The notes under the pieces: model-generated | What the model saw: the letters and a program-made list of their open reading frames with translations, nothing else | What the model was told of the DNA's origin: nothing | Databases searched by the model: none | In this document: positions 31,463 through 49,169 of the stretch, piece by piece | Position numbering within the stretch: the stretch's first letter is position 1 | How the letters are laid out: each line of letters begins with the position of its first letter | Source of the DNA: Maribacter sp. MMG018 | Lineage (GTDB): Bacteria > Bacteroidota > Bacteroidia > Flavobacteriales > Flavobacteriaceae | Reading direction: 5' to 3' | NCBI RefSeq assembly: GCF_018100785.1 | Contig: NZ_JAGJEC010000001.1 | Location: 496,001-560,000, forward strand | DNA: 64,000 nt | Position numbers and translations under genes: made by a program

Positions 31463-31593
31463 GACTAACTATTTTTTTATTCTACCGACTAAATTATATG
31501 CATCATAAAAAGAACTATTGGACATATTTATTTTATTATTGTACTTTTTAAACATTTATGTTTTGATTATACCAAAAATATATTCATAACTTA

Positions 31594-31629: not shown

Positions 31630-31654
31630 CATATACTTGTTTTAAATACACATT

Positions 31655-32524: not shown

Positions 32525-32628
32525 TTACTACACTATGACCTTTAGCGCCAGTCATACAATCAAATTATAAAATACCCACTTTAGTTAGTATCAATAAAAA
32601 TCTTCAATTCACAAACCATAAAACTTAC

Positions 32629-33396
32629 TTATGAACTTTTTTTCAATGCTATACTAATTTCTTCACATGTCGCCTGAAGATGCGGTAAAACATTAGAGAC
32701 CAGTTCCTCATTGTTGAATCTACTGGTTTGCACAAGAATATTTATAGCATACTTTACTTTGTTGCCCTTAGAAAAAATTGGAGCGGAAATCGAACGCAAA
32801 CCTGCTTCTAATTCTTGATCGACCAAAGACCATTTTTGAAGTTTTACCTTTTCCAGTTCTCTTTTTAAATGCTCCTTACTCATGATAGAATTAATAGTGT
32901 ATTGTTTGTATTCTATGTTATCAAGGGCATTTGTTAAATGCAGATCGTTCATGGCCCATAGAACACGGCCCATTGAAGTTACATGGGCAGGTAATCTTGA
33001 TCCTACCCCTAGTGAAACCGTCATTATTCTAGACACCTGCTGCCTAGCTATATATATTACTTCTAAGCCGTCTAAAGTAGCCAAAGAACAAGATTCGCCA
33101 ACCTCAAGGGATAATTTTTTCATTAAAGGACCGGCTAATTCTGAAATATCGAGAGAAGACATATACCGATACCCCAGATCTAGCACTTTTGATGTTAATT
33201 CAAAATATTTGCCGTTAGTGGACATGTAACCTAAATAACAATAAGTTAACAGAAACCTTCTTGCGGCAGCTCTTGTTAATCCAGTTATTTCGGCAACTTC
33301 AGATAATGTCATCGACTTTCTGTCCGCAGAAAAAGCCGTTAAAACCTTTAAACCTTTGTCTAATGACTGTACGTAATCCGTTTTCTTTATATCCAA
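32629..33396 (-). CDS. IclR-family regulator of aromatic catabolism
   Basis: 255 residues from the TTG start at 33396. It has an N-terminal winged helix (YVQSLDKGLKVLTAF, TLSEVAEITGLTRAAARRFL) and a C-terminal effector domain with SLGVGSRLPAHVTSMGRVLW, typical of the PcaR/PcaU/PobR branch. The frame is open to an ATG at 33495, but a consensus promoter (33423-33453) sits inside that extension and the extra 33 residues are unlike IclR proteins. It is divergent from the TonB receptor and close to the pca operon, so it probably controls the locus starting at 33599, the pca genes, or both. Confidence 0.88.
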   Translation of the reverse strand: MDIKKTDYVQSLDKGLKVLTAFSADRKSMTLSEVAEITGLTRAAARRFLLTYCYLGYMSTNGKYFELTSKVLDLGYRYMSSLDISELAGPLMKKLSLEVGESCSLATLDGLEVIYIARQQVSRIMTVSLGVGSRLPAHVTSMGRVLWAMNDLHLTNALDNIEYKQYTINSIMSKEHLKRELEKVKLQKWSLVDQELEAGLRSISAPIFSKGNKVKYAINILVQTSRFNNEELVSNVLPHLQATCEEISIALKKSS

Positions 33397-33418
33397 TTTT
33401 AAACAAAAATAAATTATT

Positions 33419-33453
33419 CGAACAAATATAAAACCTATTGTATTATCATCAAA
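33419..33453 (-). promoter_or_regulatory. Promoter of the IclR gene with operator half-site
   Basis: On the minus strand TTTG (33453-33450), a 19-bp spacer and TATATTTG (33430-33423) match the Bacteroidota consensus, giving a leader of about 22 nt to the TTG start. The half-site TTTGTTCG (33426-33419) overlaps the -7 box and equals one arm of the palindrome at 33545-33567, suggesting autoregulation. Confidence 0.7.
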
Positions 33454-33544
33454 TATTTTATCTAGAAATAGAGTATTCTCAATTTTAACATACAAATATT
33501 TGCATATTAATTAATTAATAATAATATTTATCCGAAATAAAAAC

Positions 33545-33567
33545 TTTTGTTCGCATATAGAACAAAA
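33545..33567. promoter_or_regulatory. Predicted IclR operator upstream of the TonB receptor
   Basis: TTTTGTTC-GCATATA-GAACAAAA is a perfect 8-bp inverted repeat, 32 bp before the receptor start. The GTTCG core resembles the GTTCG-containing sites described for PobR/PcaU-type IclR proteins. Its half-site recurs at the IclR gene's own promoter. Confidence 0.6.
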
Positions 33568-33598
33568 ATAGATAACAATTCCAACTAAACTATTACTC

Positions 33599-36352
33599 AT
33601 GAAACACTTAATGATTTATTTTATAATGGTGATCTTTACCGGTAATGCCTTGGCGCAAACAGAAATAAACGGAACGGTTACCGATGTGCAAAATGAACCC
33701 TTAATAGGGGCAACTGTAATCATAAAAGGAACAACCGACGGAATAGCAACCGATTTTGATGGCAAGTTTCAACTTTCAACAGATCTACCTTTACCAATAA
33801 CATTAACTATTTCCTATATAGGCTTCAACTCTAAAGATGTAATAGTAGAGAAGGGCGGTGATATTGGTAATATTGCCCTAGAAGAAGGAGAGATGCTCGA
33901 AGAGGTAATAGTTTCCGCTTCAAGGGCTCCGGAAAAAGTTATTGAAGCAGTGGCCTCGGTAACTTCATTAGGCCCTGCTCAAATAGCGGCCACACCATCG
34001 AATGGAGATCCAACAGAATTATTGAGAAACGTACAAGGGGTTAATTTGGTACGAAGTGGGACCCAGTTTTCAAATATAGAATTGAGAGGATCTACCACTG
34101 TAAATGAAACCAACACACTAATACTAAAAGACTACATGCCATTAACAACACCCGTTGATAAATCAACAGAGTCACGAAACAGCTCATTGTCCTCCTTAGA
34201 CATTGCCAGAGTCGAAGTAGTTAGAGGTCCGGTCGGTGCCTTGTACGGGCCAAATGTAACCTCTGGTGTGGTGCACTTTATTACTAAAGACCCATTTAAA
34301 TACCCAGGGTTAGACGTTGCAGTAGGAGTTGGAGACAGAAGTGCAACCAATTATAGTTTACGATATGCTGGTAACAACGGTAAAAAGTTTGGCTGGAAAC
34401 TTTTAACATCATATTCAAAATCAACTGATTTTGCAATTGCAGGTGAAGGTCTTATAGATGCCAATGGCAACCCCGTAGTTAGACCAAAAAACATGGAGAC
34501 ATTGGGCGGTAAAACATTCTATAATGTTGAAAATTTAGACCAAGAAGTAAGCAATTGGTTTGTAGAAGGTACTTTGGCTTATAAGTTCTCTGATAAGGTA
34601 AAATTGAATTACCTGTTTTCTCTTGCTAGATCTGTGGGTAATTCAAGAAATCAAACTGGACAGAATTATAGAGGTATGCAGCGATACGAACAGCAGTTAA
34701 GAATTGATGCCGGTAATTTCTTCGCTGCACTTTATCACCGCCATAGTTTCGGAAACATTGATAGTGATGGCAACCTCAACCGACTAAAAAATCACATTTT
34801 TACTGTAGGCTATAGTAATCCGCCCAATGTAGACAGAGATGGAGACGGTATCAATGAAACACGGGTAACCGATCCAATTGGGGCAACCGATTATTATGAT
34901 ATTAGCGCTCAATACACTATTAACACAAACGACAATCTCCGAATGATCGTAGGTGCAGATTCAAAAATAAGCCCTTCAATTGAGTCTCCAGCTGTTTATG
35001 GCATTAACGACAAAAGTAATGGAGGAGATAATTCTTTCAATATTTATGGGGGCTATATTTCCGGTAAATATAAAGTTACCGACAAACTGGCGGTAAGTGC
35101 AACGGGTAGGGTTGATCATTACTCGGCATACAAAGAAACCGCATTTTCACCAAGAATTGGCATGGTATACAATCCAAGTGATAAAACTGGTCTTAGGCTG
35201 AGCTTTAGTAGGGCGTTCGAATCTCAAAGTCAATTAAGAACTTGGTTAGACTTTCCAATTCCTGTTCCTTCCACTTTTCCCGAAACACATATTGCTGGGG
35301 TAGGAACTCCTGTTACCTATAATAACCCAGTAACCAAGTTCGCTTTTGGAAATGTAACCGGTGCAGGAACCTATCAATTTCAAGATATTGTAAACGCTTT
35401 GGCGGCAAATGCAGGTATTACAGCGCCTTCTGTTTCAGGCACTATTGATTCTCAATTAACATCTTCTGTGTTCTCTGGACCAGGAGCGGCCGGTGTAGGT
35501 GCCTCCACAGGGCCTATTTCCAATATAAACCAAGCCGGACAACCTAAAGTATCATTGAAAACCGTGAATCAATTCGAAATAGGATATAGCACCGTTCTCG
35601 AAGAGAAACTGAAGATTAATGTTGATTTATATTATTCTATTTCCGAAAATTTCCAACCTGCAGGATCAATACCAATCTCAGCAGGTTCACAATTAAATTT
35701 AGCCAATGTTCAAGCACAAATAGAAGCACAAGTACCGGCTGGCAATGATAGAGATGCCCTGCTCAATGCTCTATACAGCCAACTAGGCACACCTAGCAAC
35801 AGTAGTGTTCCTGGCTACGGATTGGTCATCTCCGATTTGGCACAGGCCAACGGATGGGAGTTTGATGCCGGTTTTCCAACTTTTGGTAACGAATCTGCAA
35901 AGTACATAGGTGCCGATATCGGATTAACGTATTATATTACACCAAAATTGATTGGTTCTGCAAACTACTCATACGTATCTAAAAATATCTGGACACCAGA
36001 AGATCTTGGCGAAACAAATCAAAACTATCAGTTCTACCTTAATTCACCGACGAGTAGAGTAAACTTAGGTTTGCGATACGGTGGCGAAAAAGGTTTCTAT
36101 GGTTCTATTAGTATGAACTATGCCTCAGAGTACGAAGGCAAACAAGGTGACGGTAGAGTATTCACAGGCGTAAACCCCGCCCGTACCATTGTTGACTCTA
36201 GAATTGGCTATAAAACATTAATGTTCAATGAAAAAGCCAAAGTAGATTTTGGGTTAAGTGTACAAAACTTATTTGACAAAAAATACTCTCACTTTGTTAA
36301 CCTACCAGAATTAAGAAGATTTACCATGTTTAATGTTAGAGTTAGTTTGTAA
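33599..36352 (+). CDS. TonB-dependent outer membrane receptor
   Basis: Active importer across the outer membrane, 917 residues. The signal peptide ends GNALAQ. Residues 22-100 form a carboxypeptidase-like beta-sandwich (GTVTDVQNEPLIGATVIIKG). The plug has VSASRAPEKVIEAVASVT as TonB-box/plug start and RVEVVRGPVGALYGPNVTSG. The barrel ends with the hydrophobic-aromatic pattern RFTMFNVRVSL. No SusD partner follows, so it is not a classical glycan-utilisation SusC. Its position, first in a sulfatase/aromatic cluster and beside the IclR gene, suggests a sulfated aromatic or similar ligand. Confidence 0.92.
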   Translation: MKHLMIYFIMVIFTGNALAQTEINGTVTDVQNEPLIGATVIIKGTTDGIATDFDGKFQLSTDLPLPITLTISYIGFNSKDVIVEKGGDIGNIALEEGEMLEEVIVSASRAPEKVIEAVASVTSLGPAQIAATPSNGDPTELLRNVQGVNLVRSGTQFSNIELRGSTTVNETNTLILKDYMPLTTPVDKSTESRNSSLSSLDIARVEVVRGPVGALYGPNVTSGVVHFITKDPFKYPGLDVAVGVGDRSATNYSLRYAGNNGKKFGWKLLTSYSKSTDFAIAGEGLIDANGNPVVRPKNMETLGGKTFYNVENLDQEVSNWFVEGTLAYKFSDKVKLNYLFSLARSVGNSRNQTGQNYRGMQRYEQQLRIDAGNFFAALYHRHSFGNIDSDGNLNRLKNHIFTVGYSNPPNVDRDGDGINETRVTDPIGATDYYDISAQYTINTNDNLRMIVGADSKISPSIESPAVYGINDKSNGGDNSFNIYGGYISGKYKVTDKLAVSATGRVDHYSAYKETAFSPRIGMVYNPSDKTGLRLSFSRAFESQSQLRTWLDFPIPVPSTFPETHIAGVGTPVTYNNPVTKFAFGNVTGAGTYQFQDIVNALAANAGITAPSVSGTIDSQLTSSVFSGPGAAGVGASTGPISNINQAGQPKVSLKTVNQFEIGYSTVLEEKLKINVDLYYSISENFQPAGSIPISAGSQLNLANVQAQIEAQVPAGNDRDALLNALYSQLGTPSNSSVPGYGLVISDLAQANGWEFDAGFPTFGNESAKYIGADIGLTYYITPKLIGSANYSYVSKNIWTPEDLGETNQNYQFYLNSPTSRVNLGLRYGGEKGFYGSISMNYASEYEGKQGDGRVFTGVNPARTIVDSRIGYKTLMFNEKAKVDFGLSVQNLFDKKYSHFVNLPELRRFTMFNVRVSL

Positions 36353-36360
36353 TTAGTTAA

Positions 36361-36400
36361 GAACACCTGTGAATATTACCCATAGGTGTTCTTTATAACT
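36361..36400 (+). terminator. Hairpin after the TonB receptor gene
   Basis: GAACACCT (36361-36368) and AGGTGTTC (36384-36391) form an 8-bp stem with a 15-nt loop, followed by TTTATAACTTT. It probably reduces transcription into the sulfotransferase gene. Confidence 0.6.
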
Positions 36401-36415
36401 TTAAAACAAGATAAA

Positions 36416-38266
36416 ATGCAAAAAACAATAATAATATTGGCCCTTTTTATTTGTCATTTTGGGACTTCTCAAAAAATAAAAGAAAAACCCAGACCTCCTG
36501 AATTGGAAAAACTTGTTTTCAGATTAATGACCGTTCCAAATGCAGTTGACAGTAACGGTGATGGTGACCTTTCTATCGAAGAAGTACTAGCGGCACCTAA
36601 ACAATTATTAAAGTTAGATAAAAATGGTGATGGAATTTTAGATTCAAATGAAATAGGTGCATGGGAAGAACAATTACCTTTAGTACGCAATCATAATATT
36701 ACCAATTATATTGACGTAAATGGTGATGTTATCATATCCGCAGAAGAAATTAGAAATGCTTCATCCTCATTAAAATTATTAGATGCCGATGGCAACTGGC
36801 ATATCAGTAAAAAGGAAATAGAATTTAACAAACCCCCTCTTTTTCCGCTTTTTAGTAATTCTAGAATGCCTTTGAAAACATGGAAAAGGTTTAGGGGATA
36901 TATAACAGAGCTCGAAGGTCCTATCCCCCCAGGAAAGAACAAGCATGCCTACAAAGGTTACACATTGATACATGAATCAGGTGATGCCACTTTAACCCAA
37001 CAATCAGACAAAACCTATTTGTTAGATGAAAAGGGGAAAAAGGTTCATGAATGGAAACATAACGGATACTCCCCTGAAGCTTCTGTCGCCTATCTTTTAC
37101 CCAATAGTCAATTATTAAGAACATATAGCAAACATCATTGGCATAAGGACAAAAAATTCCCTGTAGGTGCTACATCGACTATTGAATTGGTTGATTGGGA
37201 AGGAAATGTTCTATGGGACTTTACGATGAGTGTAGCTGAAAAATATAGTTTTCATCATGATGTAGAAGCATTGCCAAATGGGAATATTTTAGCGATTAGA
37301 CATAACGCCTTCACGGTTGAAGAAGCTAAAGCAATGGGTTGGAATGCAGATTTAGGTAAAAGGGCCGCCTATATGATAACCAAGGATAAGACTAAGAAAA
37401 ATGGGCTCGTTTGGATGAGTAATGTTTTAGAATTAAAACCAAACCTAGTAGACGGCAGTACAGAAATTGTCTGGCAATGGAATAGTTGGGACCATCTAGT
37501 TCAAAATAAATATCCTAAGAAACAAAACTTCGGGAACATAACAGATTCTGGTAAAATACATATAAACTACCTTGATTTAGACAAAGACGTACCATATAAC
37601 GTTGGACAATTTTTTCATCTAAATACAGTAGATTATAATGCGGACTTAGACCTAATTATGTTGAGTTCTCCGACTTATGGAGAATTTTGGATTATAGATC
37701 ATAGTACCACTACCGAAGAAGCTGCAGGCAGTACAGGAGGAAAATATAAAAAAGGAGGCGACATAATTTACCGTTGGGGCAATGATGAAGCATTTGGGAA
37801 AGACATTCGAGACAATTCAACGTTGTATTGGCAACACAACGTGCATTGGATACCAGATGGTTTACCTGGCGCGGGCAATATCCTAATTTTTAATAATGGC
37901 CAACGTCGCACACTAGATGGCAAATTCGTTAAAGAAACAAAAACAACCGGTTTTGGTAGTACATACTCTAACATTTTGGAAGTTAAACTTCCAATGGATG
38001 AAACTGGAAACTTTAACCCGAACAAGAAAACCAAAATAGTTTGGTCTTGGGCCAACCCAGATAAGACCTGGTTCTATTCTCCGTTTATGAGCGGAGTTCA
38101 ACGATTACCTAACGGTAACACCATTTTCAATAGTGCTTATGATAAATACATTATAGAAGTAACACCTAATGGGAAGAAAGTTGAAGATTATAGAGTGCAA
38201 GGTTGGGGAAGATTGTATCGCATATATAAATATGGCGATGATTACCCTGGGCTTAAATTTAAATAA
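36416..38266 (+). CDS. Aryl-sulfate sulfotransferase with N-terminal EF-hands
   Basis: 616 residues with a signal peptide (cleavage near GTSQ), so periplasmic or surface-exposed. Residues 45-140 hold four EF-hand loops of calcium type (DSNGDGDLSIEE, DKNGDGILDSNE and two more degenerate ones). The rest is an arylsulfotransferase propeller (ASST family): HHDVEALPNGNILAIRHNA, WQWNSWDHLVQ, HLNTVDYN, PDGLPGAGNILIFNNG and SGVQRLPNGNTIFNS. ASST moves sulfate from a phenolic sulfate to another phenol without PAPS. The ATG at 36416 was chosen because the earlier GTG at 36386 lies in the terminator stem. Confidence 0.86.
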   Translation: MQKTIIILALFICHFGTSQKIKEKPRPPELEKLVFRLMTVPNAVDSNGDGDLSIEEVLAAPKQLLKLDKNGDGILDSNEIGAWEEQLPLVRNHNITNYIDVNGDVIISAEEIRNASSSLKLLDADGNWHISKKEIEFNKPPLFPLFSNSRMPLKTWKRFRGYITELEGPIPPGKNKHAYKGYTLIHESGDATLTQQSDKTYLLDEKGKKVHEWKHNGYSPEASVAYLLPNSQLLRTYSKHHWHKDKKFPVGATSTIELVDWEGNVLWDFTMSVAEKYSFHHDVEALPNGNILAIRHNAFTVEEAKAMGWNADLGKRAAYMITKDKTKKNGLVWMSNVLELKPNLVDGSTEIVWQWNSWDHLVQNKYPKKQNFGNITDSGKIHINYLDLDKDVPYNVGQFFHLNTVDYNADLDLIMLSSPTYGEFWIIDHSTTTEEAAGSTGGKYKKGGDIIYRWGNDEAFGKDIRDNSTLYWQHNVHWIPDGLPGAGNILIFNNGQRRTLDGKFVKETKTTGFGSTYSNILEVKLPMDETGNFNPNKKTKIVWSWANPDKTWFYSPFMSGVQRLPNGNTIFNSAYDKYIIEVTPNGKKVEDYRVQGWGRLYRIYKYGDDYPGLKFK

Positions 38267-38675
38267 ATGGCAATCATCAATTCTATCTATGCCAAGACAA
38301 AAACGTAATTGCAATTCAAAGGCTTTACATCCTATAAATTATGTTGGATGGTTCAAGCATCTCGGGTTTAGGGAGCAATTGTGGTAAAACATCTACACCT
38401 TATACAAATACATGAGTCAACATTTTACAATGGTTCCCTGGTTTTAGAACAGATTCAATGTGCGATTATTTAATAGGGATAATGATAAAGGACAACGGTA
38501 TTCTTAAGAAAGGTAAGAACAGAATTATGAATAAGTATTAAAAAACATTGTTACAGAGGACTCAAGTATTCCTAAGAAGAAATTTCGGACGATATAACTG
38601 TCTTTCGAAAACGGTCGCTGTTGGCAAATAGTATTTAGTATCAAAAAAGATTATTTCTAATTAACCAAGGAAATA
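38267..38675. other. Gene-free stretch, probably decayed sequence
   Basis: No intact ORF with family features on either strand. Short frames are broken by many stops. It leads into a sulfatase-like remnant, so it may be the rest of that dead gene, but I could not recognise sulfatase N-terminal motifs here. Confidence 0.5.
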
Positions 38676-38870
38676 TGGGGCTTAAGAAAAGAAGATTGGA
38701 AAATTGCAAATCAAAAAGATGTTTCAAAAAAAGGATTCTTTCAACTTTTTAACTTAAAACAAGATATGTATGAACAACAAAACTTCGCTAGTGAATATCT
38801 AGAAATGTGTTCCAATCTAATTCAAGATCGGAAGTTTAGAAATAGATGTATTGTTTTTAGAAAATTTTGA
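38676..38870 (+). pseudogene. C-terminal remnant of an S1-type sulfatase
   Basis: One frame of 64 codons up to a TGA reads WGLRKEDWKIANQK and then FFQLFNLKQDMYEQQNFASE. This matches the C-terminal pattern of formylglycine sulfatases (R-x-x-DWK, then LYNLxxDPxExxNLA). No start codon or upstream catalytic part is intact. Two other sulfate-acting genes flank it, so a lost sulfatase of the same cluster is likely. Confidence 0.55.
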
Positions 38871-38891
38871 ATAATTAAAAACACAGAATAA

Positions 38892-39743
38892 TTGAAAAAA
38901 TCAAGAACTAAAGTAGTGCTCTTAGGTACTGGTACCCCAGTAATGGTGAGTGGTCGCTATCAAAGTTCATTAGCAATAATTGTTGATGAGACTTCATATA
39001 TCGTTGATTGTGGTAGTGGTATTCTAGAACGCCTTTCAAATGCCCGCGCAAGGGGCATTAAAGGACTGGAAAATAAAAAATTAACACGTTTGTTCATTAC
39101 CCATTTTCATCCAGATCATACCGTAGGCCTGCCTGCGTTTATGATTTGTCCCTGGAATGCGGAAAGATGGGATACACTTAAAATTTTCGGGCCCAAGGGT
39201 ATTGAAAAAAAAGTGAATGGGCTATTGGACGTTTTTGAAGATGGCATCAATGAACATCTAAATAGTAACCCAAAATTTATGTCTCCTATAGATATAGAAC
39301 CAAAAGCATATACACAAGGCATTATTTATAAAGATGATTTGGTCAAAGTTGAGGCCATTCCAGTTGAACATGGTAATTTGGAGGCATATGCCTTCAAATT
39401 TATTACTCCAGACAAAACAATAGTAGTTTCCGGTGATACCTGTCCCAGAGGAGAACTATATGAAAAAGCCATGGACTGTGATATTTTGGTTCATGAAGTT
39501 TATTGCGAAAGTGCAATAAAAAAAGGAAAAGGAGTCGTACAAGAATATTTTAAAAGAGTACATACTGGTGGTGTTGAATTGGGAAAAGTAGCCAATAGAA
39601 TAAAACCAAAAAAGTTAGTCTTGACCCATCAGATTGCATATGGTCTTTCTAATGAAGAGGCAGAAAAACAGATTTTAAAAGAAGTTCAAATGAATTTTTC
39701 AGGAGAGGTAATCTATGGTAATGATTTAGACGTGATCGAATAA
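38892..39743 (+). CDS. Metallo-beta-lactamase-fold hydrolase, arylsulfatase AtsA/RNase Z type
   Basis: 283 residues from a TTG start; a stop codon directly precedes it in frame. The start KVVLLGTGTPV and the zinc motif THFHPDHTVG (His71, His73, Asp75, His76) place it in the RNase Z-like group. Further ligands are in VEHGN, SGDTCP and LTHQIA. The segment LPAFMICPW followed by LKIFGPKG resembles the subgroup of the MBL-fold arylsulfatase AtsA of Pseudoalteromonas carrageenovora (sulfatase family S4). There is no signal peptide, so it would act in the cytoplasm. Context favours arylsulfatase over tRNA processing, but activity is inferred. Confidence 0.72.
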   Translation: MKKSRTKVVLLGTGTPVMVSGRYQSSLAIIVDETSYIVDCGSGILERLSNARARGIKGLENKKLTRLFITHFHPDHTVGLPAFMICPWNAERWDTLKIFGPKGIEKKVNGLLDVFEDGINEHLNSNPKFMSPIDIEPKAYTQGIIYKDDLVKVEAIPVEHGNLEAYAFKFITPDKTIVVSGDTCPRGELYEKAMDCDILVHEVYCESAIKKGKGVVQEYFKRVHTGGVELGKVANRIKPKKLVLTHQIAYGLSNEEAEKQILKEVQMNFSGEVIYGNDLDVIE

Positions 39744-39750
39744 AAAGATA

Positions 39751-41505
39751 ATGATTTCAATACCAATTATAAATAGAGTAAAGCATTACAACTTTAAGTT
39801 GTTCCAGTCTGACTTAATTTCTGGGCTAACTGTTGGCGTAATGATAGTACCTCAGGGCATGGCTTACGCTATGCTTGCCGGTGTACCTCCTATTTATGGA
39901 TTGTACGGTGCCATAGTCCCACTTTTTTTGTATGCTATTTTTGGTACATCACATGCTATGGCCATAGGGCCCGTAGCAATTTCATCATTGTTAATTTTTG
40001 CAGGCATAAGTGAAATAGCGGTGCCCGGTTCTCCCGAATTTATTTCATTCGTGATTTTGTCCGGTTTTTTTATAGGGCTCCTTAAGCTTCTAACTAGTAT
40101 AATGCGATTAGGGTTTTTGGTCAATTTTTTATCAAAACCTGTGATTATTGGTTTTACTTCCGCTGCAGCAATAATTATAGCCATTAGTCAAGTGAAGTAT
40201 GTGCTTGGTGTACATATTCCGACAAGTTCATCTTTATTAAGTACTATTCAGGGTTTAAGTTCAGAAATAGATAACACTAATGTGGCAACGGCATTGGTTT
40301 GCATTAGTGGTATTACATTAATGTTATTATTAAAAAAGCTGAACAAAAAAATACCTGGCGCCTTATTGGTTGTGATATTGAGTGTAGCGGTAGTCTCTCT
40401 ATTCCATTTAGAAGACTATGGCATTACAATTGTTAAAGAAGTACCTAAGGGTTTCCCTTCTTTTTTAGTGCCAAACTTCACCATAGAAAATATTCGTTTG
40501 GTAATGCCTACGGTCTTGACCGTAACAGTAATCAGCATTGTAGAGTCAATAAGTATTGCCAAGGTTTGGGAGTCTAAATATAATGCAACTCAAGATCCAA
40601 AAAATAGATATAAGATAGATGCAAACCAAGAATTATTTGCCCTTGGTATTGCTAAAATTGGTGGTTCCTTTTTTCAAGCTTTGCCTTCTTCAGGAAGCTT
40701 TACTCGCTCAGCAATAAACCATGAGAGCGGAGCAAAAACACAAATTTCATCAATAATTACTGCGCTTTTCGTCACGCTGGTATTGTTGTTTTTTACGCCG
40801 CTATTTTATTATTTGCCCCAAGCCATATTGGCTGCTATTATTTTAGTATCCGTTGTGGGGCTGTTTGAATACAAAGAGGCATTTTCATTATGGAAAACCC
40901 ATAGAAGCGACTTCTATATGCTGTTGACTTCTTTTATATTAACACTTGTAGTTGGTATTAAAGAAGGGGTGTTTGCCGGTATATTTTTATCCATTATTGT
41001 TGTTGTTTATCGCTTGGCAAAACCAGACATCCTTGTGTTGGGCAAATTACCAAACACAAGCCATTTTAGATGTATTCACAGATATCCTGAAGCTGAGCAA
41101 GTCAAAAATTGTAAAATCATTCGATTCAACGGTCAACTATTCTTTGCTAATAGTGATTATTTGAAAGATTTTATTGTAAGCGTCATAACTGAAAACAGTA
41201 ACATCAAAGTACTCATCATAGATGCTTCGAATATTCATGATGTAGATTCTACAGGAATAAAAATGCTAAAAGAAGTTAAAGAGCTTCTGGAAGCAAAAGA
41301 CATCCATTTTTATTTTGCTAATACGATAGGTTCTTTTAGAGACCGGCTACATAGGGCTGGTTTAACACAAAAAATAGTCGGTAAAAATCATTTTATGTCA
41401 ATTCTGGAGGCCGTTGAATATTCTCAAGAACAAATTCCCGAACAAGAAAAAACAATGAATAACAACGTGGTCTATGCAATCTCATCCGTAACCACCAAAT
41501 TTTAA
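39751..41505 (+). CDS. SulP-family anion transporter with STAS domain
   Basis: 584 residues. The membrane domain starts DLISGLTVGVMIVPQGMAYA and YGLYGAIVPLFLYAIFGTS, signature sequences of SulP proteins, and has 12-14 predicted membrane segments. The C-terminal STAS domain (about residues 440-560) has IDASNIHDVDSTGIKML. SulP proteins carry sulfate, bicarbonate or dicarboxylates. In this operon, 7 bp after the MBL hydrolase and 6 bp before an aromatic-acid porter, sulfate exchange linked to ester hydrolysis is a reasonable guess. Confidence 0.9.
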   Translation: MISIPIINRVKHYNFKLFQSDLISGLTVGVMIVPQGMAYAMLAGVPPIYGLYGAIVPLFLYAIFGTSHAMAIGPVAISSLLIFAGISEIAVPGSPEFISFVILSGFFIGLLKLLTSIMRLGFLVNFLSKPVIIGFTSAAAIIIAISQVKYVLGVHIPTSSSLLSTIQGLSSEIDNTNVATALVCISGITLMLLLKKLNKKIPGALLVVILSVAVVSLFHLEDYGITIVKEVPKGFPSFLVPNFTIENIRLVMPTVLTVTVISIVESISIAKVWESKYNATQDPKNRYKIDANQELFALGIAKIGGSFFQALPSSGSFTRSAINHESGAKTQISSIITALFVTLVLLFFTPLFYYLPQAILAAIILVSVVGLFEYKEAFSLWKTHRSDFYMLLTSFILTLVVGIKEGVFAGIFLSIIVVVYRLAKPDILVLGKLPNTSHFRCIHRYPEAEQVKNCKIIRFNGQLFFANSDYLKDFIVSVITENSNIKVLIIDASNIHDVDSTGIKMLKEVKELLEAKDIHFYFANTIGSFRDRLHRAGLTQKIVGKNHFMSILEAVEYSQEQIPEQEKTMNNNVVYAISSVTTKF

Positions 41506-41511
41506 AAGATC

Positions 41512-42849
41512 ATGACCACATTAGATATAAACCAAATAATAGATAAGGCTAAAGCCACGCCATTTCTAGTTCACATAGTTGTTCTTGGATGTTTGTGCTC
41601 AATTATTGAAGGTTTTGAGATGATAGTTTTGGGTATGATTATACCAAATCTTGCAAAGGATTGGGGCTTAAAACCAGAAGACTTCGAATATGCACATCTA
41701 GCCGTTCTATTCGGAATTTTAGCAGGCTCTATTTTTGCCGGAATCCTCATGGATAAAATTGGCCGAAGAAAATCAATGCTACTTATGTTTGGTCTGGGTA
41801 CTATTGGTATGGGGGTAAGTTTTTTCCTTGAAAATATGACACAGCTGATTATACTAAGGTTTTTGACAGGATTGGGGGCCGGAGGTTCGTTGCCGATCGC
41901 GTTGGCAATAGTAACCGAATATTCTCCTAAAAAGGTTAGAAACATGTTAGCCGTATTGGTATATGCCGGAGCCCCATTTGCCACTACCGTTGGCGGGTAT
42001 ATAGGTCCTCATTTCATTGAAATGTACGATTGGAAGGGGATGTTTCTTTTAGGCTTTATGATGTCTTTGCCAATTTTTCTTTGGATGGTCTTTTTCTTAC
42101 CTGAATCATTAAAATACCTAGTAGCCAAAGAGAAAAATACAGAGAAGGCAAAAAAATTATTAATCAAAGTTGATAGCTCCATAACTATTGCCGAAACGGA
42201 TCGACTGTTTATCAATGAAAAATCGATTGCAAAAAGTCCTATTGGAGCACTGTTTTCTGAAGGTAGGTCTATTGTTACCTTCTTATTATGGATTGCATTT
42301 ATTGGCGGTCAGTTCATCGTTTATTTTATGTCGCTATGGCTACCGACAATTTTACAAAATAATGGTTGGGAACAAAATCTAAGTTTAAACGCAATCGGTC
42401 ATTACTATTTAGGTGCTGGAATTGGTGGAATTATTATTGGCTGGATGGCAGACCGATGGGGGTCCGCAAAAGTTTTGGCCATAGCTTTTCCTCTTGCCGC
42501 ATTGCTATATTTTTGGTTAGGACAAGTTGTTGACGACCCGGATATGTGGTTTATCATAGCGCCATTTGCAGGAGCCGTAAGTGTTGGTGCAATGATGGCA
42601 AAAGCTCCCTTTGCTGCTAGTCTTTATCCAACAACAATTAGAGGAACAGGTATAGGTACGGCAATGGGCGTTGGTCGTATCGGTGGTTTGCTGACTCCTG
42701 GGGTTGGTGCCGCATTGGTAGCCGCCAACGTGACTGCTGCCCAATTTTATAACATAGCTACAATTGCCCCGATAATATGTGCTAGTGCAATACTCGTCAT
42801 TTTGTTGATTACCAGGAAAAAGAAATTCGGCATAGATAATATTCAATAA
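41512..42849 (+). CDS. MFS transporter, aromatic acid:H+ symporter type
   Basis: 445 residues with 12 predicted membrane segments. IIEGFEMIVLGMIIPNLAKDW in helix 1 and LMDKIGRRKSMLLMFG after helix 2 fit the AAHS family (PcaK/BenK/VanK-like). The second half has GWMADRWGSAKVLA and YPTTIRGTGIGTAMGVGRIGG. It likely brings a substituted benzoate or related aromatic acid through the inner membrane. It is 6 bp after the SulP gene and 29 bp before the aldehyde dehydrogenase. Confidence 0.88.
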   Translation: MTTLDINQIIDKAKATPFLVHIVVLGCLCSIIEGFEMIVLGMIIPNLAKDWGLKPEDFEYAHLAVLFGILAGSIFAGILMDKIGRRKSMLLMFGLGTIGMGVSFFLENMTQLIILRFLTGLGAGGSLPIALAIVTEYSPKKVRNMLAVLVYAGAPFATTVGGYIGPHFIEMYDWKGMFLLGFMMSLPIFLWMVFFLPESLKYLVAKEKNTEKAKKLLIKVDSSITIAETDRLFINEKSIAKSPIGALFSEGRSIVTFLLWIAFIGGQFIVYFMSLWLPTILQNNGWEQNLSLNAIGHYYLGAGIGGIIIGWMADRWGSAKVLAIAFPLAALLYFWLGQVVDDPDMWFIIAPFAGAVSVGAMMAKAPFAASLYPTTIRGTGIGTAMGVGRIGGLLTPGVGAALVAANVTAAQFYNIATIAPIICASAILVILLITRKKKFGIDNIQ

Positions 42850-42878
42850 ATTCAATTATACCCTAAAAACACCAAAAT

Positions 42879-44330
42879 ATGTATAGTTCTTATATAAATG
42901 GAAAATGGACTGCTATGGGCGAGAATTTTGAAACCACCAGCCCAGTAACCAATAAACCATTCGCTACTGTTATTGGTTGCGATGCAGAAGATGCTAGGGC
43001 GGCCATCAAAGCAGCGAAAACGGCATTTCCATTATGGTCAGGTTTGAGTGCTGAAGAGCGTAGTCATTACCTGATCAAAGTAGCGGAAGCTCTTGAGGAA
43101 ATGGTTGAGGAGATTGAAGATATATTAATAGATGAGGTTGGCTCTTGGATCGGGAAAGCAAAATTTGAATGCCTTACCACACCTAAGTTATTTCGTGCAG
43201 CAGCAGACCTTACTAAAACCGTAAAAGGTTATGAGCTAGTATCGCCTGCTGGCAAAAAGAGCATGGTAGTAAAAGAACCTATGGGAGTGGTCAGTGTTAT
43301 CACACCGTGGAATATGCCCTTAAACCTTTCATCAAGAACCACATCTAGTATTCTAGCGGTAGGTAATACCGTAATATTAAAGCCTGCCGAATTATCTCCT
43401 TTGTCAGGAGGATGGGTTTTGGCAAAAGCCTTTGAAAAAGCTGGTGTTCCTAAAGGTGTATTTAATGTTCTTTTGTGCTCCAAACAAAATGTAGAGAAAG
43501 TTGGTGATGTTATGGTTACGGACCCCTCTATTAAGGCCATAAGTTTTACGGGGTCCACAGGTGTGGGTAAGCATATCGCTGCAAAAGCCGGAAGTCTTTT
43601 AAAAAAGGTTAGTATGGAGCTCGGCGGTAAAGATGCGATGATTATTTTAGACGATGCGGATTTAGATATAGCCGTAAACGCAGCTGTTTTTGCCTCCTTT
43701 AATCATTCTGGTCAAATCTGTATGGGTACCAAGCGTATCTATGTACATGAAAAACTAACTACCGAATTTACTGACCGTTTTGTTGCTAAAACTAAGAAAC
43801 TTGGTTACGGTGATGTGCGAGATTTAAATAAGCCCATTGCTCCCCTGATCAATGAAACCCAAATTAGGAAAATTGACGAACAAGTAATAGATGCAGTTGC
43901 TAAAGGAGCAACTGTTTTAGCTGGCGGAAAAAGAGATGGCATGTATTACCTGCCCACAATTCTTACTGGGGTAACTTCCAATATGAGCACTTTTGACGAA
44001 GAAGCCTTTGGTCCTTTAGTATCTATATACGTTTTTTCAACTATCGAAGAAGCTATTGATCAAGTGAATGCCTCTAAATATGGTCTTTCAGGCGCTGTAA
44101 TTACTAAAGATACAGTTAAAGGGTATGAAGTAGCCAGGAAAATTGAAAGTGGAATGTGCCATGTAAATGACGGTACTATCTATGCTGAAGCTTTAGCCCC
44201 TTTTGGGGGTGTTAAAAATAGTGGTATCGGGCGTTACGGTGGTCAAGCGTCAATAGATAGTTTTACGACAACGAAATGGATTACAATTGCCGATAAAGGT
44301 ATTCAATATCCACCAGCATTCATGGAATAA
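42879..44330 (+). CDS. Aldehyde dehydrogenase, benzaldehyde/vanillin type
   Basis: NAD(P)-dependent oxidation of an aldehyde to the acid. 483 residues. Catalytic features are the glutamate in SMELGGKDAMI and the cysteine in HSGQICMGTKR, with the asparagine in TPWNMPL. The end of the protein, FGGVKNSGIGRYGGQASIDSF, follows the pattern of benzaldehyde and vanillin dehydrogenases. Given pobA nearby, 4-hydroxybenzaldehyde is a likely substrate, giving 4-hydroxybenzoate. The gene is 12 bp before the SDR gene. Confidence 0.9.
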   Translation: MYSSYINGKWTAMGENFETTSPVTNKPFATVIGCDAEDARAAIKAAKTAFPLWSGLSAEERSHYLIKVAEALEEMVEEIEDILIDEVGSWIGKAKFECLTTPKLFRAAADLTKTVKGYELVSPAGKKSMVVKEPMGVVSVITPWNMPLNLSSRTTSSILAVGNTVILKPAELSPLSGGWVLAKAFEKAGVPKGVFNVLLCSKQNVEKVGDVMVTDPSIKAISFTGSTGVGKHIAAKAGSLLKKVSMELGGKDAMIILDDADLDIAVNAAVFASFNHSGQICMGTKRIYVHEKLTTEFTDRFVAKTKKLGYGDVRDLNKPIAPLINETQIRKIDEQVIDAVAKGATVLAGGKRDGMYYLPTILTGVTSNMSTFDEEAFGPLVSIYVFSTIEEAIDQVNASKYGLSGAVITKDTVKGYEVARKIESGMCHVNDGTIYAEALAPFGGVKNSGIGRYGGQASIDSFTTTKWITIADKGIQYPPAFME

Positions 44331-44342
44331 AAATAAAACAAA

Positions 44343-45107
44343 ATGAACAAAACAATAATAATAACGGGGTGTTCTTCAGGAATAGGAGCAGAAACAGCAA
44401 GGCAGCTTAAAGCACAAGGCATGACCGTAGTCGGCTTCGACTTAAAAAAACCCGAAGCTAACGTCGACGTATATATTCCTATGGACTTAAGTGATTATTC
44501 CTCTATTGATAAGGCCGTAGAAGCACTAAAAGTAAAAGGTGATGCACTATATAACGTAGCAGGGGTTCCCCCAACATTACCTACTGATATCCAAATTAAA
44601 GTGAATTTTTTTGGACTGCGCCATTTTACCAACCTTATGATTCCTAAATTAAATTCGAACGCTTCAATTATAAATTTAGCTTCATTGGCTGGTGCTAATT
44701 GGCTTAATAATATAGATCACATTAATTCTTTGTTCGCAATTGAAAACCCAGATGAAGCAGAACAGTTTTTAATAGAAAATAATTTGAACGATGTAGCTAC
44801 CTATGCCTTTTCAAAAGAGGCCGTCATTGCATGGTCCCTTAAAGTATCGGATAAATGGAAAGAAAAAGGTATCACTGTAAAATCTGTAAGTCCAGGTCCA
44901 ATAAAAACACCTATTCTTAAAGATTTTGAAGCAACAATCGTAAAAAAACAAGTAAGTCTTCCTGAGGAATATAAAGGTGAGACAAGAGATATTGCCGCAA
45001 TGCTTTGTTTTTTATGTAGTGATGGTGGTAGATGGGTTAATGGCACAGATATTCTTATGGATGGAGGCTTAAAGGCTTCAAGGTTGAAATCATCATTGTT
45101 CAATTAA
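44343..45107 (+). CDS. Short-chain dehydrogenase, coniferyl/aryl-alcohol dehydrogenase type
   Basis: 254 residues. The cofactor motif TGCSSGIGAETA is at residues 8-19, and the second strand ends VVGFDLKKPE, whose aspartate favours NAD. The catalytic serine lies in INLASLAGANW and the motif YAFSK follows. The pattern DVYIPMDLSD and the long insertion before the tyrosine match coniferyl-alcohol dehydrogenase/3-alpha-HSD proteins. It probably oxidises an aryl alcohol to the aldehyde used by the preceding gene product. Confidence 0.85.
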   Translation: MNKTIIITGCSSGIGAETARQLKAQGMTVVGFDLKKPEANVDVYIPMDLSDYSSIDKAVEALKVKGDALYNVAGVPPTLPTDIQIKVNFFGLRHFTNLMIPKLNSNASIINLASLAGANWLNNIDHINSLFAIENPDEAEQFLIENNLNDVATYAFSKEAVIAWSLKVSDKWKEKGITVKSVSPGPIKTPILKDFEATIVKKQVSLPEEYKGETRDIAAMLCFLCSDGGRWVNGTDILMDGGLKASRLKSSLFN

Positions 45108-45117
45108 AATAATTGGT

Positions 45118-46917
45118 ATGTCTTTAAATAAAGTTTTTACGGTAATTTTCATTTTGGTATTTGCAGGTTTTACATTGACTAGTTGCGAATCAAAGAAAAA
45201 GAATGATGAGAAAAAAAATGTAATAACTACAACAATTGAATTGCCAAACCGACCAAATATTTTATGGTTGGTCACTGAAGATATGGGGTCATATATACCT
45301 TCTTTTGGCGACTCTACAATTGCAACTCCCAACTTAAGCCGCTTGGCCAAAGAAGGAGTGGTGTATCCTAACCTGTTCTCTCCCTCCGGAGTATGTGCGC
45401 CTAGTAGGGCGGCAATTACTACGGGAATGTACCCAACAAGTATAGGGGCCAATAATATGCGTACCATTTTGCATACCAAGATGACAGGTTTGCCCGCCTA
45501 TGGGGCAGTGCCTCCACCTGAAACGCGTATGGTAAGCGAACTTCTTCGAATGAACGGGTATTATTGCTCAAACAACTATAAAGAGGATTATCAATTTAAA
45601 GCCCCAAAAACTGCTTGGGACGAAAGTAGTCCGTATGCCCATTGGCGAAATCGAAATAAGGACCAACCTTTTTTCGCGGTGTTCAATTTTACGGAAACAC
45701 ATGAGTCTGGATTATTTGAACCCTATGGTCATAGAAAAATTGAAACGAGACATTATCACTCGGGAGACACTACCTATACTTGGGGAGAGGATAAATTAAA
45801 ATTACAAAAAAAACCGTACATAGCTTGGGGAGCTAGTCGATTTACTGAAGAAGAGACGCCGGTGAACTTGCCCAAAAACACAAAGTTTTCTATTCCCCCA
45901 TATTTGCCCAATACCCCTATAGTACATAGGGATATGTGGAAATTATATAATAACATAGCCGAAATGGACAAACAAGTTGGAGCCATTTTAAAGCAATTGG
46001 AAGATGATGGATTATTGGAAAATACCATCATTTTTTTCTATGGCGATCATGGAGGGCCAATGCCAAGGGAAAAGCGGCTAATTTATGATTTAGGGCTGAA
46101 AACGCCTATGATTATTAGGTTTCCAAACAAGCAACGCTCAGAAACAAGAGATAATCAATTACTCAGTTTTGTAGATTTTGCCCCTACCTTACTTTCTTTG
46201 GCCGACATTGAACCACCAGCTTATATTCAAGGACAAGCTTTTTTAGGAAAGTACAAAGCCAAGGAAGAACGAAACTATATATATGGGGCCGCAGATCGTT
46301 TCGATGGGGTTACCGACGCCATACGTGCCGTTAGAGATAGCCAATATAAATACATACGTAATTATAGACCTGATCAAGGGTATTATTTGCCTGTAAAATT
46401 CAGGGAAAAGATACCTACAATGCAAGAGTTGTTACGACTACGTGATGATGGAAAATTAGATAGTATACAATTACAATGGTTTCGTAAAAAGAAGCCCCAT
46501 GAAGAACTTTATGATTGTTCGGCTGATCCATACGAGCTAAATAATTTGGCTCAAGACCCTTCTTATCAAGGTAAACTTGTTGAATTGCGAACAGAATTGG
46601 ACCGTTGGTTATCTAAAATTGGAGATGAGCCCAATCTTCCTGAAAAAGAACTGATTGCCAAGTTGTGGAATGGGGCAAAAAAACAGCCAACAACCTCAAA
46701 ACCAAAACTTACGTTTTCTGATAATAAATTAACTATTAGCTGTGCTACCATAGGAGCTTCCATAGGTTATAAAATTATTCCTGAAAATGGTAAAACACCA
46801 AAAACATGGTCAATATATCAGAAACCATTAAACCTTCCTAAACATGCTAAAATAGTTGTGCAAGCGTATAGAATAGGATATGTGCCAAGCGACATTGTTA
46901 CTGAAAACAGAATCTAA
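45118..46917 (+). CDS. Formylglycine-dependent sulfatase (S1), lipoprotein
   Basis: 599 residues, exported lipoprotein (LTSC lipobox, Cys23). The sulfatase core starts NRPNILWLVTEDMGSY, and the maturation motif C-A-P-S-R holds Cys93, which must be converted to formylglycine. Further active-site features are FYGDHGGPMPREK and the C-terminal LYDCSADPYELNNLA. Residues 530-599 form a small beta domain like chitobiase C-terminal domains (KIIPENGKTPKTWSIY). The sub-family resembles heparan N-sulfatase-like S1 groups, but the substrate is not readable. No maturase gene is in the window. It is 10 bp after the SDR gene. Confidence 0.9.
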   Translation: MSLNKVFTVIFILVFAGFTLTSCESKKKNDEKKNVITTTIELPNRPNILWLVTEDMGSYIPSFGDSTIATPNLSRLAKEGVVYPNLFSPSGVCAPSRAAITTGMYPTSIGANNMRTILHTKMTGLPAYGAVPPPETRMVSELLRMNGYYCSNNYKEDYQFKAPKTAWDESSPYAHWRNRNKDQPFFAVFNFTETHESGLFEPYGHRKIETRHYHSGDTTYTWGEDKLKLQKKPYIAWGASRFTEEETPVNLPKNTKFSIPPYLPNTPIVHRDMWKLYNNIAEMDKQVGAILKQLEDDGLLENTIIFFYGDHGGPMPREKRLIYDLGLKTPMIIRFPNKQRSETRDNQLLSFVDFAPTLLSLADIEPPAYIQGQAFLGKYKAKEERNYIYGAADRFDGVTDAIRAVRDSQYKYIRNYRPDQGYYLPVKFREKIPTMQELLRLRDDGKLDSIQLQWFRKKKPHEELYDCSADPYELNNLAQDPSYQGKLVELRTELDRWLSKIGDEPNLPEKELIAKLWNGAKKQPTTSKPKLTFSDNKLTISCATIGASIGYKIIPENGKTPKTWSIYQKPLNLPKHAKIVVQAYRIGYVPSDIVTENRI

Positions 46918-46923
46918 CAGATG

Positions 46924-46943
46924 AGAACCATGGTTCTTTTTTT
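46924..46943 (+). terminator. Possible terminator after the sulfatase gene
   Basis: AGAACCATGGTTCT is a perfect palindrome followed by T6, 7 bp after the sulfatase stop. As a hairpin it would have only a 4-5 bp stem. The rest of the gap to 47160 shows nothing recognisable. Confidence 0.45.
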
Positions 46944-47159
46944 ATTCAAAATGCAACTATTTACTGGGTAAAAAAATCCATAAGCCAATAAAAACAACTG
47001 TTAGGAAAAACTATTATTAATAAAAGATGTTTTGCGATTTATAATATAAAAGCATAATGCCAAGAATAAAATTTCTGGATATCTAAAAAAGGCGCTACGT
47101 CGATAGAGTTATTCAAAAAATGATAAATGGTCTTGTCACATTGCTGAATTTTAAAATAT

Positions 47160-48845
47160 ATGTATACGATGATTAAAAATATTATTACAATTTCATTAGT
47201 TGGGATTGTTACTTTAAGTTGTGTTACGAACAAGAGGATTGATAAAGTTTCAGTGAATGAAATAAATGAGTACTCAAATCCAATTTTACAAGGTTTCTAC
47301 CCCGACCCAAGTATATGTAAAGCCGGTAGTAATTACTACATGGTACATTCAACCTTTGCCTATTTTCCAGGAATTCCAATTTTTGAAAGTAATGACCTTG
47401 TGAACTGGACACAAATTGGAAATGTATTAGACAGACCGGAGCAATTAGATTTAGAGGGGTTAGATGTGTCAAGAGGAGTTTTTGCCCCGGCAATCAGTTA
47501 TCACAAAGGAATTTATTATTTAGTAGGCACAATAGTTAAAGGAGGAAATAATTTTATTGTTTCCGCAACCGATCCAGCCGGTCCTTGGTCCAATCCGATA
47601 TGGATACCCGAAGTAAAAGGAATAGACCCTTCACTTTTTTTTGATAATGAGAAAACTTTTATTGTATACAACAGTGTCCCTCCAGATGGAAAACCAATGT
47701 ATAAAGGACATAGGACTATAAGAATGTATGAGTTCGATATAGAAAAAGGAAAAGTTTTAGGGGCACCTATAATTTTGGTAAATGGTGGTTCGGATATTTC
47801 CAAAAAACCAAACTGGATCGAAGGTCCACATATCTACAAAAGAAATAAGTATTACTATTTAATGGCTGCCGAAGGTGGAACTTATGAAAATCATTCAGAA
47901 GTTGTTTTTCGAAGTAAAAATGTAACTGGGCCATATACAAGTTATGAAAATAATCCAATTCTAACCCAGCGTCATTTAGACCCAAATAGACCAAACCCAA
48001 TTGTTTCAACTGGACATGCGGATATAGTAGAAGATAATTATGGAAATTGGTGGGGTGTTTTTTTAGGATGTAGACCTTACGAAGGCAATTATTATAACAC
48101 TGGTAGAGAAACATTTATGGCGCCTGTAAAATGGGTAGATAACTGGCCTATTTTTGATTTAGGTGGAGATATTGTAAAGAGAAGTTATCCAACACCCAAT
48201 AATGCAAAAAAACAAAAGCAATCATTTAAAAACAGTGGAAAATATATATACAAAGAAGAGTTCGAAAAATCGGAACTTGGTTATGAATGGTTGTTTTTAA
48301 GAACACCAAGAGAAAAGTGGCACACTATTTCCAATGGTACTATTTCAATTAAAACAAGGCCGGAAAGTGCTTCCAAAAAACAAAATCCAAGTTTTATAGG
48401 ATACCGACAGCAACATATAAATGGGAGTGTAAGTGCAGAAATGGACTTTAAAACACTTAAAGAAAACGAAAAATCCGGATTAGTAATTTTTCAAAACGAG
48501 ACACATTATTACTACATGTGTAAATCAATTTCCAATGATAGGCCCGTAGTTCAGTTATTTCAATCTAAAAAAGACACATTAGAACTCTTAATTGAAAAAC
48601 CTGTAATCTCAAAAAGTTCATTACAGCTAAAGATAGAAGCAAATGGAGCGCATTACAATTTCTATTATGCTGACGAAAATGAAAATTGGAAACCATTACA
48701 ATTAGATGTAGATGCACGTTTTTTAAGTACTCAAGAAGCAGGTGGTTTTGTAGGTGCTATTTATGGTATGTACACGACTTCGTTAGGAGAGAAAAGTGAT
48801 AACACTGCTAGATTCAATTGGTTCGAAATTGAAAACTTGGATTAA
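47160..48845 (+). CDS. Glycoside hydrolase family 43, lipoprotein
   Basis: 561 residues from ATG 47160 (a second ATG is at 47169). The lipobox is VTLSC. The five-bladed propeller includes the general-base aspartate in QGFYPDPSI (Asp49), the middle aspartate in GIDPSLFFD and the catalytic glutamate in WIEGPHIYK. GHADIVEDNYGNWW and the C-terminal beta-sandwich (residues 365-561) match beta-xylosidase/arabinofuranosidase members. The protein is likely anchored in the outer membrane or periplasm. With the xylose-type transporter downstream it suggests use of a pentose-containing glycan or glycoside. Confidence 0.93.
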   Translation: MYTMIKNIITISLVGIVTLSCVTNKRIDKVSVNEINEYSNPILQGFYPDPSICKAGSNYYMVHSTFAYFPGIPIFESNDLVNWTQIGNVLDRPEQLDLEGLDVSRGVFAPAISYHKGIYYLVGTIVKGGNNFIVSATDPAGPWSNPIWIPEVKGIDPSLFFDNEKTFIVYNSVPPDGKPMYKGHRTIRMYEFDIEKGKVLGAPIILVNGGSDISKKPNWIEGPHIYKRNKYYYLMAAEGGTYENHSEVVFRSKNVTGPYTSYENNPILTQRHLDPNRPNPIVSTGHADIVEDNYGNWWGVFLGCRPYEGNYYNTGRETFMAPVKWVDNWPIFDLGGDIVKRSYPTPNNAKKQKQSFKNSGKYIYKEEFEKSELGYEWLFLRTPREKWHTISNGTISIKTRPESASKKQNPSFIGYRQQHINGSVSAEMDFKTLKENEKSGLVIFQNETHYYYMCKSISNDRPVVQLFQSKKDTLELLIEKPVISKSSLQLKIEANGAHYNFYYADENENWKPLQLDVDARFLSTQEAGGFVGAIYGMYTTSLGEKSDNTARFNWFEIENLD

Positions 48846-49169
48846 ATGTTGATTAAAAGAACTTTCCTTCTTTTTACTTGACCTCAAACCCGTAATAGCA
48901 ATAAACAAAAATCATTAAGGTTCTTCCTTTCTATGACATGTAGAATTACCCTTAATATTTATTATCAAAACAGTAATAATTTAAAGGAGGGACTAACCTA
49001 TTTCAAGTCAAAAAAATGCATGAGGTAATAACTCAGGAATATTTCTTAAAACCAAAAGGGAAAAATATGACAATGTCAAATTCAGTTAAAAACTTATATA
49101 AATCGCTCAAAAAATAGCAATTCCGCAACCAAAAGTTGTTTGAAAATATTAATCAATCTAATTAAAATC
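48846..49169. other. Intergenic stretch without a convincing gene
   Basis: The 324 bp between the glycosidase and transporter genes hold only a 33-codon frame (49016-49117) with no recognised features, and no clear hairpin or promoter box. Confidence 0.5.

Follow-up and report, generated by a model that had tools for sequence, protein, structure and literature searches.

A recently transferred catabolic island in Maribacter and Zobellia with a putative route from aromatic alcohols, possibly sulfated, to the tricarboxylic acid cycle

Several described systems resemble parts of a locus in a 64,000-nucleotide stretch of the Maribacter sp. MMG018 genome (contig NZ_JAGJEC010000001.1, positions 496,001 to 560,000; hereafter the window, whose numbering is used throughout). 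The pob/pca operons of the beta-ketoadipate pathway are one of them. In coniferyl-alcohol catabolism a short-chain dehydrogenase/reductase (SDR) and an aldehyde dehydrogenase (ALDH) feed aromatic acid pathways, as do CalA/CalB in Pseudomonas. Sulfate esters are represented by the arylsulfotransferase AssT (PDB 3elq) and by Cpz4 (PDB 9kf4/9kf6), by the arylsulfatase 8gyg, which has a metallo-beta-lactamase (MBL) fold, and by the carbohydrate 2-O-sulfatases of subfamily S1_8. In an excerpt of PMC12549532, S1_8A-C are lambda-carrageenan galactose-2-sulfate enzymes, and the subfamily is cited with exo-xylose-2-sulfate and N-sulfoglucosamine activities; a table entry of PMC9096561 gives P32_S1_8 as an ulvan exo-2-sulfo-xylose sulfatase.

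The window contains a block of about 25 kb (23,980-48,875), from pcaF to a gene of glycoside hydrolase (GH) family 43, which is nearly identical in another genus, Zobellia; this near-identity between genera is new here. Sequence comparison marks it as a catabolic island that moved recently. In the reading that we prefer (probability roughly 0.5), it would carry an aromatic substrate (an alcohol or aldehyde, and probably a phenolic sulfate) to the tricarboxylic acid (TCA) cycle, while its formylglycine sulfatase (S1) would act on a sugar sulfate. Taken alone, catabolism of an aromatic alcohol or aldehyde is very probable; a sulfated aromatic substrate, proposed on the basis of MBL, arylsulfotransferase-like (ASST) and SulP genes, is plausible, at about even odds.

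A block shared between two genera

The preliminary description of this DNA had suggested a search for the same gene order in other marine flavobacteria. We found it in Zobellia uliginosa DSM 2061 (genome G036 was taken as this strain from its agreeing contig coordinates): the genes are the same, in the same order, and near-identical. Nucleotide identity to the Zobellia contig NZ_FTOB01000001.1 is 97.4% for window 23980-38647 and 98.5% for 38710-48875. The pob/pca genes are each 98.3-99.3% identical to those of Z. uliginosa, and the last gene of the block, a GH43 with a GH43_C2 domain (47160-48845, plus strand), is 98.7% identical. To the left of 23980 no match was found within the 80 kb of Zobellia compared. 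To the right of GH43 the sole match in those 80 kb (86.7%) is the gene of a XylE-type D-xylose transporter (49140-50585, plus strand; NF007484 above cut-off), which lies beyond the 97-98% block and is 87% identical over the 1262 of its 1446 bases covered. The identity of this match (48994-50401) stands between that of the island (98%) and that of the flank pieces (69-75%), and the distance from the end of the island match to XylE is about 1.2 kb in Zobellia and about 0.1 kb in the window. The right flank (52166-64000) is matched by four Zobellia pieces at 69-75%, situated at a distance of some 600 kb on that contig. The transferred island, the GH43 gene inside it and the XylE-type transporter just past it had escaped the preliminary description.

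In a sister species (G002) the match to the window breaks off after 23813 and resumes at 51994, with about 0.6 kb between; some 28 kb (23814-51993) are therefore missing there. Part of this difference may be loss, since the interval contains a beta-lactamase-type gene (50718-51923) of which 18 of the 36 genomes in the genus, this one included, have a relative (E <= 1e-60). The right edge of the interval is near a tRNA-Ala gene (52037-52111). The site is possibly a variable hotspot: in another genome (G026) about 10 kb separate the relatives of two window genes, those at 19949-21178 and 50718-51923. No integrase was present among the window proteins scanned, a set which did not include every small open reading frame (ORF).

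Comparison of the genes with their Zobellia counterparts gave dN/dS values of 0.04-0.25 in 18 of 19 genes, values that are rough with so few changes per gene; in pcaG none of the 6 changes is nonsynonymous. Synonymous change thus exceeds nonsynonymous change. Synonymous divergence is 0.024-0.075 in the pca, AraC-type and MBL-to-GH43 genes, 0.126-0.176 in iclR and in the genes of the TonB-dependent receptor (TBDT) and the ASST protein (32629-38266), and 0.57 in XylE. The higher values in the middle part point to recombination with a different version of the island. The GC content is 37.8% in the island, 38.4% in the rest of the window and 42.5% in the Zobellia stretch; being nearer to the rest of the window, the composition of the island speaks against an ultimate origin in Zobellia.

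The rarity of two of the genes was estimated from genome samples. Within the order, 395 genomes were sampled for the MBL gene (E <= 1e-30), and three gave a match: this one, Zobellia and one with a 41% relative (G354), around which no other island homologue was detected at E 1e-8 within 31 kb. Among nine Zobellia genomes only G036 contains it (E <= 1e-15). For the SDR gene (E <= 1e-40), 395 genomes of the phylum gave two with a match, this one and Zobellia, in a scan that scored no more than 6 candidates in each genome and in which misses are possible in so large a superfamily; at E <= 1e-30 it was found in 2 of 120 relatives. The other genomes sampled from the genus gave no SDR match (20 are listed; presumably all 35 were sampled). 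Two other origins of the block were rejected. Chance co-location is ruled out by a near-identical block in the same order in another genus, and vertical inheritance by the 69-75% identity of the matched pieces of the right flank, by the lack of the block at this site in G002 and by the missing SDR in the same-genus genomes sampled. Elsewhere in the window, the ORF 15809-17197 matches NosL and Phenol_MetA_deg.

Predicted route from aromatic alcohol to the TCA cycle

Families were assigned with Pfam and NCBIfam at their curated cut-offs, several narrow equivalog cut-offs being unreached; the family names proposed in the preliminary description thus stand at superfamily or family level and fail at several curated equivalog models. 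The pob/pca operon (23977-31462, minus strand) has seven genes: pcaH, pcaG, pcaB, a pcaDC fusion, pobA, a pcaIJ fusion and pcaF. All seven ORFs score above at least one curated cut-off, and the set of PobA, PcaGH, PcaB, PcaC, PcaD, PcaIJ and PcaF is complete. For pobA, NF006091 was passed and the narrower TIGR02360 missed (483 vs 539). The operon is therefore predicted to specify every step between 4-hydroxybenzoate and the TCA cycle. The enzyme set is as complete as in known beta-ketoadipate operons, but here the operon sits within a shared island beside other genes. It had been described as adjoining the plus-strand locus with an IclR regulator between, and this holds, the set running from 31462 down to 23977; an AraC-type regulator also lies between.

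An SDR of the coniferyl-alcohol dehydrogenase family (44343-45107, plus strand) passes NF009092 with 265 bits for a cut-off of 242. It follows an ALDH of aromatic-aldehyde type (42879-44330, plus strand), called from its PDB relatives: among the best are salicylaldehyde, vanillin and 4-hydroxybenzaldehyde dehydrogenases. Of 72,556 plasmid records, 105 carry an SDR relative, and 93 of these 105 are from Rhizobium; the 25 relatives listed are 38-42% identical. In 2 of 3 plasmid loci inspected, in Polymorphobacter and Rhizobium, the SDR homologue neighbours a homologue of the window ALDH; in the third, where the stretch is ended by the record end, no ALDH is annotated beside the SDR. The Polymorphobacter cluster also holds a TBDT and a major facilitator superfamily (MFS) porter. 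The MBL and ASST proteins gave no match on plasmid records at E 1e-30. By sequence, the SDR-ALDH pair is thus one that recurs on plasmids, the remaining island set being unseen there. An SDR above its family cut-off with an aromatic-type ALDH adjoining is what the locus has in common with coniferyl-alcohol catabolism; it differs by its flavobacterial host, its sulfate-ester genes, a TBDT unlike that of Polymorphobacter (E 1e-5) and a substrate which here is putative. The proposed conversion, by which an alcohol becomes an aldehyde and then an acid for the adjacent operon, finds support in the SDR and ALDH relatives, in the complete operon and in the plasmid pairs.

Two regulators lie between the operon and the locus. 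The first is AraC-type and HpaA-like (31655-32524, plus strand), with 161 bits for TIGR02297, below the cut-off of 275. The second is an IclR regulator of the PcaR/PcaU/PobR type (32629-33495, minus strand), just under the cut-off of TIGR02431 (282.4 bits for 284.75); since the family match begins at residue 39, translation probably starts downstream of the TTG. An inverted repeat with perfect 8-bp arms, TTTTGTTC-N7-GAACAAAA (33545-33567, no strand assigned), lies 31 bp upstream of the TBDT gene and may be an operator. It is one of six inverted-repeat pairs listed in the A+T-rich stretch before that gene; in Zobellia the arms are kept at 7/8 and 8/8 positions and the spacer is changed. As for the 3' end of the locus, a T-tailed hairpin after S1, kept in Zobellia, was not used: its fold is no more stable than those of shuffles (z -0.13), and it is absent from the 14 terminator-like sites (12.6 expected).

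Uptake and sulfate-ester genes

The nine plus-strand elements previously described were recovered as eight intact ORFs and one degenerate stretch, in their places, and the close packing reported for 39743-45118 (6-29 bp) was recomputed as intergenic gaps of 7, 6, 29, 12 and 10 bp from MBL to S1. The TBDT (33599-36352) contains plug, barrel and CarbopepD_reg domains. With 118 bits against a cut-off of 368 it does not reach the SusC call, and none of the 10 ORFs scanned from 33599 to 50585 is SusD-like, so that no SusC/SusD pair marks a polysaccharide utilisation locus. A SulP anion transporter with a STAS domain (39751-41505; PF00916, PF01740; TIGR00815 above cut-off) precedes an MFS porter of the aromatic acid:H+ symport type (41512-42849), whose best model, TIGR00895, gives 281 bits for a cut-off of 419; as a PcaK 4-hydroxybenzoate transporter (NF053517) it reaches 227 of 770 bits.

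The MBL-fold hydrolase (38892-39743) has as its best PDB match 8gyg (labelled 'Arysulfatase'; E 5.3e-22 over 9-280), its HxHxDH motif is intact, and no signal peptide is visible in its N-terminus. It is a candidate cytoplasmic arylsulfatase, distant from 8gyg. The compartments of the sulfate enzymes were judged from their N-termini, without a signal-peptide program. The ASST gene (36386-38266) encodes an EF-hand region followed by an arylsulfotransferase-type beta-propeller (PF05935, E 2.5e-14; 53.5 bits for a cut-off of 24.2). The single sequence found no PDB chain at E 0.001; a 12-sequence profile found AssT at E 4e-7, placing H411/N413 on H356/N358. The eleven best fold matches of its predicted model are Cpz4 and AssT (TM-scores 0.38-0.57), with an H436N mutant named among the entries. 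Among six loci with ASST relatives (L009-L014), one holds another island homologue, a 32% ALDH. A tandem pair of EF-hand arylsulfotransferase relatives is seen at L012 (6277-9793), on a contig of a proteobacterial metagenome-assembled genome, and such relatives also occur in three gammaproteobacterial ones.

Between ASST and MBL lies the degenerate stretch (38267-38891, plus strand; 625 bp), possibly a sulfatase remnant. All six frames are interrupted by stops, and the Zobellia counterpart is degenerate too. Its longest open piece (38667-38867) weakly resembles sulfatase C-termini: sulfatases make up 6 of 7 PDB matches at E up to 10, with a best E of 0.068, and a Pfam scan of the piece gave no match.

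The last of the nine elements is S1 (45118-46917), S1_8-like, with a CAPSR motif and a lipobox-like N-terminus. It had been counted with ASST and MBL as one of three aryl-sulfate enzymes; the other two keep this assignment at family level, AssT-like and arylsulfatase-related respectively, and S1 does not. Its five best PDB sequences are all S1_8 (best matches S1_8A/C/B; 244-208 bits), the next being SGSH with 107; these closest solved relatives, from which and not from the SulfAtlas classifier the S1_8 assignment is made, are not aryl-sulfate enzymes. Of 349 genomes of the family, 31 have a homologue (E <= 1e-110), counting this one and Zobellia. The 35 matched places gave 30 loci with 1.5-kb flanks, two being the island and its Zobellia copy; of the remaining 28, 25 are close (65-75%) and 3 distant (43-48%). 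A 26th close place, in G895, has no locus among the 30 and was read as L072. A polysaccharide-type gene, i.e. one with a blastp hit at E <= 1e-8 to a Pfam-named GH88, GH3, GH2, GH106, PL28, other lyase or sulfatase, or SASA-type esterase, lies within 1.5 kb in 17 of the 25 close loci; one has only a GMC oxidoreductase, and seven have none of these classes. No homologue of the other island genes was found in the 28 loci. At L073 (2722-10774), four consecutive ORFs resembling S1 (22-30% identity) precede the S1 homologue, followed by a GMC-oxidoreductase-type gene common to L071 and L072. The five best matches and the polysaccharide contexts are what S1 shares with the S1_8 carbohydrate 2-O-sulfatases, both of ulvan (P32_S1_8) and of lambda-carrageenan (S1_8A-C); it differs by starting 10 bp past an aromatic-alcohol-type dehydrogenase gene and by a genome without ulvan lyase of polysaccharide lyase family 28 (PL28). 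It more likely belongs to the sugar-sulfate than to the aryl-sulfate enzymes.

Weighing of the readings and significance

In the preferred reading, the TBDT would import the aromatic alcohol or aldehyde, probably in the form of a phenolic sulfate, through the outer membrane; a periplasmic AssT-like propeller may shift the sulfo group between phenols. The MFS porter, and perhaps SulP, would bring the substrate inward; the MBL enzyme would strip the sulfate in the cytoplasm, SulP exporting it. SDR and ALDH would then convert alcohol to aldehyde to acid, at the level of 4-hydroxybenzoate or protocatechuate, and the pob/pca enzymes, controlled by the IclR regulator, would take the acid to the TCA cycle. 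The presumed target of S1 is a sugar 2-O-sulfate, not an aryl sulfate. In favour of such a substrate, algae do produce sulfated benzyl alcohols: an excerpt of PMC9322897 gives lanosol-4,7-disulfate, though a brominated compound, as a major metabolite of the red alga Vertebrata lanosa.

A number of observations count against this reading. AssT-type enzymes transfer sulfate and do not hydrolyse it. Of the AssT active site, which we take to be H356, N358, R374 and H436, the first two are kept in ASST, R374 is replaced, and H484, invariant in the 12 sequences, aligns one residue off H436; for the nucleophile to be conserved, a one-residue gap would have to bring YWQH onto YTQH. The resemblance to AssT and Cpz4 is distant, ASST having in addition its N-terminal EF-hand region; the mean pLDDT of its model is modest (64.9), and many other propellers also match it, ranked below Cpz4 and AssT. 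The sulfate reading is unchanged by the H484 offset, as it rests as much on MBL and SulP. The MBL protein also matches GntH and RNase Z models, none over cut-off, so that its assignment is broad. The best PDB match of the SDR is a 3-alpha-hydroxysteroid dehydrogenase; the ALDH reaches none of the listed NCBIfam cut-offs, its best model being a succinate-semialdehyde dehydrogenase, below cut-off. The Polymorphobacter MFS and TBDT show no homology to the window counterparts at E 1e-5. An operator shared by the TBDT and pca promoters was sought with one pattern, which gave 44 matches for 36.8 expected and none before pcaH. As for S1, its best NCBIfam model is named arylsulfatase (NF010322), with 121 of 481 bits, below cut-off.

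Some of these points would fit an island for unsulfated aryl alcohols or aldehydes of lignin-monomer type, in which MBL and the propeller serve other roles. The breadth of the MBL matches, the distance of the propeller from AssT and the fact that no sulfatase is annotated near the SDR-ALDH pair in the Polymorphobacter and Rhizobium plasmid stretches shown all point that way; two independent sulfate-ester-type folds together with SulP in one gene run speak against it, and we regard it as unlikely. Somewhat less doubtful is a view in which two modules merely share the island side by side, one for aromatic alcohols (TBDT to SDR, with pob/pca) and one for sulfated pentose (S1, GH43 and XylE), which would release and import xylose from an algal sulfated glycan. 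It agrees with the nearness of S1 to a subfamily that includes an ulvan exo-2-sulfo-xylose sulfatase (table entry of PMC9096561; subfamily also in the excerpt of PMC12549532), with the GH, PL, esterase or sulfatase genes beside its close homologues and with the order of the genes, GH43 and XylE coming after S1. Yet S1 is operon-like behind SDR, the 10-bp gap between them favouring a single SDR-S1 transcript, and GH43 is set apart from S1 by 242 bp. A GH43 relative (E <= 1e-60) occurs in 3 of 27 genomes, namely this one, Zobellia and one with a 36% match more than 2 Mb from its S1, and is thus missing in 24 of the 25 other S1-bearing genomes. XylE is outside the near-identical block, and PL28, the one ulvan lyase family tested, was found in 2 of 8 genomes and is lacking in this one (G000) as well as in G036, G002, G895, G046 and G120. 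Both modules could also be joined in a single system for a sulfated phenolic glycoside: S1 would desulfate a pentosyl 2-O position, GH43 cleave the sugar and XylE import it, while MBL and the AssT-like protein would treat the phenol sulfate and the aryl alcohol would pass to SDR, ALDH and pob/pca. We hold this to be improbable.

Neither a description of such a locus nor one of a whole-molecule glycoside pathway moving between genera was present in the literature searched, several of the searches being aimed at S1_8 and ulvan, which is weak evidence. Marine algae are a source of phenolics, sulfated ones among them; little was found on their consumption by Bacteroidota. The preferred reading is that of a compact island which would join uptake, sulfate handling, side-chain oxidation and ring cleavage, and which recently crossed a genus border. 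One block in two hosts, with a sister species lacking it, provides a natural control and a testable handle.

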